64,000 nt of DNA from positions 62,001 to 126,000 of the forward strand of contig JAMDCQ010000002.1 in NCBI GenBank assembly GCA_023488905.1, read 5' to 3'. A program made the position numbers and the translations under genes. Positions 33,747 to 36,212 of the stretch are shown one piece after another. The notes under the pieces were generated by a model. That model was not told where the DNA came from. It saw only the letters and a program-made list of their open reading frames with translations, and did not search any database. This stretch comes from Candidatus Bathyarchaeota archaeon (GTDB lineage: Archaea; Thermoproteota; Bathyarchaeia; Bathyarchaeales; Bathycorpusculaceae). How positions within the stretch are numbered: position 1 is the stretch's first letter; every line of letters begins with the position of its first letter.

Positions 33747-34997
33747 ATGGCTGCAACGGACGAAGTACAAGCGCTAATAGTGGAATTCATAAACAAAAAC
33801 TCAAACGTTGCCGACGTCCAATGGGACCGCCGCATGAGTCCACGACTACTTTTCAACCCCTACTCGGAAAAGTATGAAGAAAGAAAAATCATAGCCCACT
33901 ACTTCCTACTTGCAGCCTCAATTCTAGACGACACCATCGTGGGGTACCCTGAAAACGCCCGCATGCTCATGGTATACCTGCACGAAGCGTTCGGGAGTTC
34001 TTTTTTTGAAATCAAAAAAGCGCATCTTTTTGAAGAAGAAATCGTCAAAGCCGACTTCTACCACGACTTGGGTCCAAACAAAAAAGCCGCTCCAGAAAAC
34101 CTCGCTGCGGTAAACCTGTTTATCCGCAATAACGCTGAAAAAAACCTACTCAAGTACGCCCAAAAATTCACGAAACCTAAAGACTTCATCGAAGACCTAT
34201 CAAAAAACATACCCGCGTTGAGTGGTCCGCATAAGGATCGCGCGTGGACTTATATGCGGTGGATGGTGCGTCCGCTGCCTGACCTGCAAATCTATGACCA
34301 TCTGCTGCCAGAAGACCTCTATGTGCCGCTAACAAAAGAGAACGCAAACGTCGCAGCTAGTTTGGGCATAATTCCCTCGGCTTTGCCGTCGCTTTGGCGC
34401 GATGAACCAACAGCTGCCCACGCTAGACAGAGGCTAACTGATTACGCCAAGAAGCTTTTTCCTCAGGACCCCGCAAAAATTGATTACCCCTTCTTTCTTT
34501 TGGGCAGATGGTTAAAACAGAAAACCCTCAACCGCTACACCCTCAAAACTGCCCTTGACTTTTTGGAGCGCATGCAAAAAATCACGGGTCAATCCCAAGC
34601 GTACTACCAAAAGATGAGTCGCTACAAAAGTGGCTGGGAAAAGAAAACCGCGCTTACCTTGCTGCGTATGCACATTCCATACGGTTACGAAACCATCAGT
34701 TTTCCCTTACCTAATGAGGTTTACACGCCTGACTTCATCTTAGAGAAAACCGTGCAGGGCAGAAAAATCATTCTTGAACCCCACTTCGAAATGACCAAAA
34801 AACAAGCCCGCAAATACGCCCTCTTCAAACGGACTTACGGTCACGAATTCTTGCTGATTCTGCTTCTAAAAAACGACCTTATCCCCCTGTACCATCAACG
34901 CAAAATCTTAACCGACGATGTCTGCGACGATGTGTGGCCTATTGAATTCATCCACCTTTTGGTTGAGAAAATCCGAAGAGGAACATACGGTCAATAA
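33747..34997 (+). CDS. HhH-type DNA glycosylase-like domain fused to a nuclease-like domain
   Basis: A 416-residue protein. The first 250 residues resemble the TIGR02757/DUF2400-type helix-hairpin-helix glycosylase-like family: FNPYSEKYEERKIIAHYFLLA, RAWTYMRWMVRPLPDLQIYD, EDLYVPLTKENANVAASLG. The C-terminal 100 residues look like a PD-(D/E)XK/VSR-like fold: YTPDFILE with Asp329, then KIILEPHFEMTKKQARKYALF with Glu344, and HEFLLILLL. Together these suggest a base-lesion recognition and strand-cutting enzyme, but the fused architecture is my inference. ATG at 33747. A metalloprotein gene follows 43 bp later. Confidence 0.6.
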   Translation: MAATDEVQALIVEFINKNSNVADVQWDRRMSPRLLFNPYSEKYEERKIIAHYFLLAASILDDTIVGYPENARMLMVYLHEAFGSSFFEIKKAHLFEEEIVKADFYHDLGPNKKAAPENLAAVNLFIRNNAEKNLLKYAQKFTKPKDFIEDLSKNIPALSGPHKDRAWTYMRWMVRPLPDLQIYDHLLPEDLYVPLTKENANVAASLGIIPSALPSLWRDEPTAAHARQRLTDYAKKLFPQDPAKIDYPFFLLGRWLKQKTLNRYTLKTALDFLERMQKITGQSQAYYQKMSRYKSGWEKKTALTLLRMHIPYGYETISFPLPNEVYTPDFILEKTVQGRKIILEPHFEMTKKQARKYALFKRTYGHEFLLILLLKNDLIPLYHQRKILTDDVCDDVWPIEFIHLLVEKIRRGTYGQ

Positions 34998-35040: not shown

Positions 35041-35406
35041 ATGGCACAAACCAACTTCAAACCCCATGTTGTTGCGTTGATTTTAAGCGGCAAAACTGAA
35101 GAAGCACTGGAGTTGCTTGCCAAAGAGTACGGAGTTGTTGTGCCCGCGTTGACGGTTGGGTTGCCCAAGGGACATAAAACCTCCGCCTATGGCTGCTACA
35201 CTGCCAAAAATCAAACCATAAGCGTCCTCAACAGCGACATACTAGTCAACCCATTTGTCATCCTCCACGAGTTCTATCACCACTTACGTAGTAAAGCGGT
35301 GGATCGCATGCATAGAGGCACAGAGGGCAACGCTGACAAATTCGCATTGGATTACCTGCGGGAATATCAAGTTGCAGCCCTAAGAGCACAACTGAGCGGT
35401 CAGTAG
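35041..35406 (+). CDS. Small HExxH metallopeptidase-like protein
   Basis: A 121-residue protein with LHEFYHHLRSKAVDR, the HExxH zinc motif, and TEGNADKFALDYLREY about 20 residues later, whose glutamate is well placed as the third ligand of a gluzincin-type site. No signal peptide, so cytoplasmic. It follows the glycosylase-nuclease gene and overlaps the end of the convergent JAMM gene by 7 bp. Substrate unknown. Confidence 0.6.
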   Translation: MAQTNFKPHVVALILSGKTEEALELLAKEYGVVVPALTVGLPKGHKTSAYGCYTAKNQTISVLNSDILVNPFVILHEFYHHLRSKAVDRMHRGTEGNADKFALDYLREYQVAALRAQLSGQ

Positions 35407-35819
35407 AACTCTTCGTCGTTGCATTCTACTGGTGCAGTTACTTCGATAGGTACCGTCTCTCCCTCTGAATCGTAAGCGGCAATGCAGCTTTTTCCCTCAT
35501 AAGGATACCCCACAATCACCAATACACGTCCAAAGAAATAGTTCAAATCAACATGGCTAGGTGAAATGTCACCTGAAGGATGTGAATGTACGGTTCCGAC
35601 AAGCGAGAAATCTCCCGCGAACATGTAGGGGTTAAAGTGGACTTCGCCTTCTCCATGTATTGCGAATGGCGCTAATACTAAGTCGTTGATTAGAATGGTG
35701 TTTTTTCTTTTTTTGCCTCGTAGCAGTAGGAAGCTTTCGCGGGGGTAGAGTTCTTTGGCGCCTGCATAGATGGTTTCGAGTATGTTGCTTGGGATGTGTA
35801 TGGTTGGGGGCGGTGACAT
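35400..35819 (-). CDS. JAMM/MPN+ metalloprotease domain protein
   Basis: A 139-residue protein with a complete JAMM motif: LVGTVHSHPSGDISPSHVDL (HxHPSG...PSxxD) plus the upstream glutamate in LYPRESFLLLRG. The family cleaves isopeptide bonds to ubiquitin-like or SAMP modifiers in archaea, or acts on other small conjugates. I start it at the ATG at 35819; an extended frame up to 36041 would run backwards through tRNA-Ser and is not real. There is no SAMP or E1 gene in this window to name the substrate. Confidence 0.8.
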   Translation of the reverse strand: MSPPPTIHIPSNILETIYAGAKELYPRESFLLLRGKKRKNTILINDLVLAPFAIHGEGEVHFNPYMFAGDFSLVGTVHSHPSGDISPSHVDLNYFFGRVLVIVGYPYEGKSCIAAYDSEGETVPIEVTAPVECNDEEFY

Positions 35820-35937
35820 AGCAGAACGGTTGGGTTTGTGGGTTAAGAACTTTACCCAATTGATTGTAGAAAAGTTTACTGTTGCTGGATTCGGTAAAGA
35901 TTTAAGACACAATGGATTAAGAGTGTTGATTTGTTGT

Positions 35938-36025
35938 GCCGAGATGGCAGAGTGGTTAACGCGCGGGCCTTGAGAGCCCGTGGACCTCCCGGTCCGCATG
36001 GGTTCGAATCCCATTCTCGGCGCCA
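35938..36025 (+). tRNA. tRNA-Ser(TGA)
   Basis: Class-II tRNA with a long variable arm. Acceptor GCCGAGA pairs with TCTCGGC; the D-arm has GGCAGAGTGGTTAACGC; the anticodon stem GGGC/GCCC encloses CTTGAGA, giving TGA (serine); the variable arm is GGACCTCCCGGTCC; the T-arm is ATGGGTTCGAATCCCAT. Discriminator G at 36022 is followed by an encoded CCA (36023-36025). No intron. Confidence 0.94.
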
Positions 36026-36212
36026 AAATTTTCCTTTTCAATTTAGTCGTATTTGTGTTCAGATTCTGAATTCATAAGTGATTAATACGCAAAAATCGAT
36101 AATCGGCGTCGGTAAACAGGGTGATCGCTTAACCATAATTTTAGATTAGCTAAAACAATCAGTAAAACAAAAGAAAAACGAATTAGGTGATAATCCTTGG
36201 TTAATTCCGAGG

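Follow-up and report, generated by a model that had tools for sequence, protein, structure and literature searches.

A DUF2400 domain with a predicted DNA-glycosylase fold joined to a T7 endonuclease I-like domain in Bathyarchaeia

Proteins of the DUF2400/TIGR02757 family (PF09674) are spread over bacteria, archaea, and phages, and the literature that we searched mentioned the family once in passing and contained no study of its function. The bacterial members that we examined stand alone, and some phage members end in a different extension. Several archaeal members, such as gp05 of the Archaeoglobus provirus ApPV1, carry a cysteine cluster (CxnCx2Cx5C) and then a C-terminal PD-(D/E)XK-like domain. 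Three further systems offer comparisons: the HhH-GPD glycosylases (EndoIII, OGG, and AGOG); DUF2419/QNG1, a queuosine 5′-phosphate N-glycosidase that serves in queuine salvage and has no nuclease domain; and T7 endonuclease I (gp3, PF05367), whose catalytic residues, by number and role, we take to be E20, D55, E65, and K67. A literature search for a DUF2400 domain fused to a T7 endonuclease I-like domain found no description of such an architecture.

We analyzed a gene with this architecture in a stretch of 64,000 nucleotides (the window) from the 1.79-Mb genome of a Candidatus Bathyarchaeota archaeon. The gene and its parts are as follows.

33747..34997, + strand: fusion gene for a 416-residue DUF2400 plus T7 endonuclease I-like protein (ORF, orthologues, AF2 model, and selection)
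33747..34580, + strand: N-terminal domain, residues 1-278, all-helical DUF2400 with a predicted HhH-type DNA-glycosylase fold (PF09674, model, and Foldseek)
34581..34625, + strand: interdomain stretch, residues 279-293, probably a flexible linker (pLDDT < 50 at 279-282 and 285-293)
34626..34994, + strand: C-terminal domain, residues 294-416, putative PD-(D/E)XK nuclease, T7 endonuclease I branch (profile and fold matches)

The open reading frame starts with ATG. Relatives of its product are present in 31 of the 32 searched genomes of the genus and in 4 genomes from other genera of the family; in the genome collection, these genomes are named Bathyarchaeota, Bathycorpusculum, Crenarchaeota, or Nitrososphaerota. 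Some genomes hold a divergent fusion copy (32-38% identity) as the sole or an additional copy. The dN/dS values are 0.02 to 0.05 for the N half (pairs with estimable dS) and 0.004 for the C half (the one pair in which dS was estimable), most other pairs being saturated at synonymous sites. Given its genus-wide presence and the strong purifying selection on both domains, the reading frame is a real gene and not a chance one. The preliminary description of the locus had posited one 416-residue protein joining two domains and had called for a search for the fused architecture in related genomes; the single protein is borne out, with support for both of its halves, and the architecture recurs across the genus. 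Among the relatives, the L074 copy (G022:C102:5799-7043) is apparently interrupted by one in-frame TGA, and the reading frame of the L078 copy (G058:C41:7712-8432) is apparently split.

Residues 128 to 253 match DUF2400 above the Pfam gathering cutoff (39.5 bits versus 25, E = 8.8e−10). The N domain also aligns with other DUF2400 proteins in a profile-profile comparison (E = 1.8e−17, 82 columns), with which it has RWMVR and FPxDPxKxD regions in common. The fusion protein differs from the family in its TIGR02757 (NCBIfam) score of 37.5 bits, which lies under the cutoff of 139.2. The isolated N domain was modeled confidently (pLDDT 94.6, pTM 0.92), and its best fold match in the PDB is DUF2419 (Foldseek, E = 9e−4, TM 0.61), followed by 8-oxoguanine glycosylases, AGOG, EndoIII, NTHL1, MutY, and OGG1. 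The matches to DUF2419, OGG, AGOG, and EndoIII have E values of 1e−3 to 0.4 with probabilities near 1. Although the E values are modest, nearly all of the top fifty matches belong to the HhH-type glycosylase/DUF2419 superfamily. These observations indicate that the N domain is a divergent DUF2400 domain with the predicted fold of a DNA glycosylase, the resemblance being one of fold and of DUF2400 homology; its place in the enzyme class of that name is putative. The HhH-type N-terminal region of the preliminary description therefore holds as far as the fold is concerned, whereas the canonical HhH hairpin (GVG) was not seen. Two other marks of the HhH-GPD glycosylases are missing: the fusion protein has no PF00730 (HhH-GPD) match at E values up to 1, and the N domain has no Fe-S loop.

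Canonical DUF2400 aligns with EndoIII around the catalytic aspartate (PLDTHV versus VDTHV; E = 6e−5, probability 65%, in a single profile comparison), and the EndoIII motif register of the N domain was set through this alignment. Two codons of the fusion gene can be placed in this way.

34236..34238, + strand: codon of D164, the ungapped equivalent of the conserved DUF2400 Lys (EndoIII K120) in the alignment
34332..34334, + strand: codon of T196, the equivalent of the catalytic Asp (EndoIII D138, LDTHV motif); Thr in 35 of 36 fusion-family sequences

Most other DUF2400 proteins have Asp at the second position; in 10 of them (bacterial, phage, and archaeal), the Lys is invariant and the Asp nearly so. 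In the fusion family, the Lys position is occupied by D, N, S, H, or A in the ungapped alignment. Judged from these alignments, the N domain has lost the catalytic Asp and has probably lost the catalytic Lys. Because Asp is replaced by Thr, the Lys position is changed in the ungapped alignment, and the GVG hairpin and the Fe-S loop are absent, the N domain is unlikely to excise bases actively. An enzyme that combines base recognition with strand cutting, as had been suggested for this locus, is therefore upheld in its two-domain layout and its nuclease fold, and active base excision is improbable.

Could the N domain still be an active glycosylase/AP lyase, with K163 for instance as the nucleophile, that excises a base before the nuclease domain cuts the strand? 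Its fold is that of a glycosylase, Lys and Asp are both present in other DUF2400 proteins, and 30 of 36 sequences have K163 right beside the canonical Lys position. The remaining sequences, however, have R, V, M, or L in place of K163, and the Thr substitution and the unseen hairpin argue in the same direction, so that we regard this alternative as improbable. A different function is suggested by the top fold match: the protein might be a nucleoside or RNA enzyme akin to the queuosine glycosidase, with a nuclease domain that acts on RNA. Identity to DUF2419 is about 12%, the fold scores of OGG and EndoIII are similar to that of DUF2419, and canonical DUF2400 aligns with the D138 motif of EndoIII. 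The C-terminal family, moreover, is by homology a DNA junction nuclease, and we consider a role of this kind to be highly unlikely.

In the AF2 model, residues 296 to 374 of the C-terminal domain have the alpha-beta-beta-beta-alpha-beta order of PD-(D/E)XK nucleases together with an acidic site (DSSP). Its Foldseek matches include a viral Endonuclease I, PspGI, and Bax1. At the sequence level, the C domain matches phrog_945, labeled "endonuclease" (E = 4.6e−9), and phage endonuclease I homologues in a profile-profile comparison (98.8%, E = 8.8e−17); the profile of the viral homologues in turn matches T7 endonuclease I (E = 3e−52), and a PDB search with the fusion-family profile found T7 endonuclease I (2pfj, E = 1.3e−5). 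Many stand-alone homologues of the nuclease domain are found on viral contigs. A scan of these contigs with the full fusion protein alone gave no relative, and a scan with the fusion-family alignment gave matches restricted to the nuclease half, in frames that are stand-alone endonuclease I homologues. The active-site positions were compared in a set of 37 sequences, that is, the window protein and 36 relatives.

34638..34640, + strand: codon of E298, equivalent of T7 endonuclease I E20; invariant in 37 of 37
34731..34733, + strand: codon of D329, in YTPDF, equivalent of T7 endonuclease I D55; invariant in 37 of 37
34776..34784, + strand: codons of E344-P345-H346, equivalent of T7 endonuclease I E65-x-K67, with His for Lys; identical in all 37 sequences

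Pro328 is invariant in the whole set as well. The domain shares with T7 endonuclease I the equivalents of E20, D55, and E65 and the motif SGxE...YTPDFIL; it differs in the His that takes the place of Lys67, in its fusion to a glycosylase fold, and in being encoded by a cellular archaeal gene. Profile comparison shows the C domain to be a homologue of T7 endonuclease I, yet the domain scores below the Pfam cutoff for Phage_endo_I (PF05367; 17.9 bits versus 29.1) and lacks the catalytic Lys. The PD-(D/E)XK-like C-terminal region that had been proposed is thus corroborated by both the predicted structure and the homology, and Asp329 and Glu344, whose lack of conservation had been named in advance as grounds for refutation, are both invariant. 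A Micrarchaeota contig encodes a nuclease domain without DUF2400 in which the EPH motif is kept (L076:7043-7600, 185 aa).

The Lys position raises the question of whether the nuclease is dead and the protein a non-enzymatic binder of DNA structures, given that His346 is found in 37 of 37 sequences and Lys is invariant in the 17 aligned viral homologues. Strict conservation of E298, D329, E344, and H346, however, suggests a working site, and in every compared pair the dN of the nuclease half is lower than that of the N half. We consider a dead nuclease to be very unlikely.

Nuclease-like domains are joined to DUF2400 in other archaea as well. In five genomes of Thermoproteota (G083, G157, G238, G383, and G396; phylum name inferred from relatives) and in gp05 of ApPV1, DUF2400 is followed by the CxnCx2Cx5C cluster, which resembles that of EndoIII, and then by PD-(D/E)XK-like motifs (RADIV...VEVK...Q or RPDFF...AEAK...Q, by inspection). 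Because PDB searches with these C-terminal domains returned nothing useful, their assignment to PD-(D/E)XK rests on the motifs. Unlike the fusion described here, these proteins retain the cysteine cluster and the HhH Lys, and their C-terminal domain is of another type. The provirus gene (L106:2971-4230, Archaeoglobus profundus pleomorphic provirus) is annotated as hypothetical, and a scan of viral contigs with its product gave nothing. In a Bacteroides phage (L107:753-3776), a DUF2400 gene annotated as N-glycosylase/DNA lysase is flanked by a gene for an SMC/RecF-like ATPase and an annotated NinB, a setting that suggests a recombination module.

Two genes lie beside the fusion gene in the window.

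35041..35406, + strand: HExxH putative metallopeptidase, 121 aa, probably outside the fusion gene's system; adjacency limited to 13 close relatives
35400..35819 (about), − strand: convergent JAMM/Prok-JAB protein, probably outside the fusion gene's system (PF14464, E = 7.6e−9); at the same 13 loci

Both genes had been pointed out as neighbors, and they do adjoin the window gene, but the pairing is kept in one subclade only. Across the 13 close relatives, the spacing of the HExxH gene and the fusion gene varies between about 30 bp and 1.7 kb, and in the termite-gut clade the fusion gene is flanked by secY and EMC3/cytidylate-kinase genes. We therefore rejected the HExxH and JAMM proteins as general partners. 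The JAMM reading frame as listed (35400-36041, − strand) overruns a tRNA-Ser gene (35938-36025), and the relatives suggest a start near 35819 (139 aa).

Around the divergent copy, repair genes lie within about 7 kb in most readable loci.

L069: UvrD-PDDEXK and MBL-RMMBL protein
L071: Dna2-like, MBL-RMMBL, and AlkA-like protein
L073: YprB-like, MrfA/HRQ1-like, pol-beta-thumb, and MBL proteins
L074: AlkA-like protein
L075: MBL and Exo5-like proteins

The L072 locus has no repair neighbors; at L033, a Mre11-like fragment was seen by inspection about 5 kb away. The neighbors of the divergent copy, an AlkA-like glycosylase and an RMMBL nuclease among them, point to a putative role in DNA repair. 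Homologues of these neighbors were found at 0 of 29 orthologue loci, a count biased by queries that were drawn from the divergent-copy loci, and no repair neighbor of the window-type copy was found at orthologue loci.

The preliminary description had also raised a defense enzyme, for which we found no direct support: PADLOC gave no defense match for the fusion protein, no defense genes were noted among the conserved neighbors of the orthologues, and the divergent copy's neighbors indicate repair. The protein might nevertheless be a nuclease of modification-dependent restriction or one directed against mobile elements; its glycosylase fold would recognize modified bases in foreign DNA, and its nuclease domain would cut. 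A base-flipping fold joined to a nuclease would suit such a role, PspGI is among the fold matches of the nuclease domain, and DUF2400 proteins are known in phages and a provirus. Against this, in addition to the PADLOC and neighborhood results, nearly all genomes of the genus carry the gene under strong purifying selection, which suits a housekeeping role, and we think restriction unlikely.

Given a glycosylase shape without a key catalytic residue and a T7-type nuclease in one chain, the protein is probably a DNA-cutting enzyme that is steered to damaged or branched DNA. Our favored reading, held with moderate confidence, is an endonuclease targeted to DNA structures or lesions, with the glycosylase fold binding distorted DNA and the T7-type domain cutting it; the setting is likely DNA repair or recombination rather than defense. 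The N domain, its base-excision chemistry presumably lost, would be the sensor, binding and bending duplex DNA that is distorted, damaged, or branched. Tied to it by the short, probably flexible linker, the C domain, probably dimeric as in T7 endonuclease I, would cut beside the sensor-bound site with a divalent metal, for which it would use the retained metal-binding acids E298, D329, and E344, H346 occupying the position of the catalytic Lys. The joining of nuclease-like domains to DUF2400 elsewhere, in Thermoproteota genomes and ApPV1 gp05, supports the endonuclease reading, as do the repair genes around the divergent copy and the surroundings of the Bacteroides phage DUF2400 gene. Counted against it are the repair-gene context, which is that of the divergent copy, and the Lys-to-His change at position 346, which could weaken or abolish cleavage. 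The same genome, moreover, encodes several HhH-GPD proteins and, in the window, an archaeal Hjc-type Holliday junction resolvase (2324-2761, + strand; G000:C3:64387-64599), so that neither activity is otherwise missing. With an ordinary Hjc present, we rejected the fusion protein as a replacement for Hjc.

More tentatively, we conjecture that DUF2400 may be an unrecognized branch of the glycosylase fold that became linked on repeated occasions to different PD-(D/E)XK nucleases in archaea and a provirus. Such proteins would form a new class of repair endonucleases, targeted to lesions or crosslinks, with a glycosylase, here catalytically dead, as the sensor; we hold this possible rather than probable. 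The fusion protein belongs to a barely studied family, whose function is made directly testable by its placement in the glycosylase fold, by the nuclease fusions, and by the apparent loss of Asp in the fusion's archaeal branch, most other members examined having retained both Lys and Asp. For the Bathyarchaeia, an abundant uncultured group, the fusion protein suggests a repair route.
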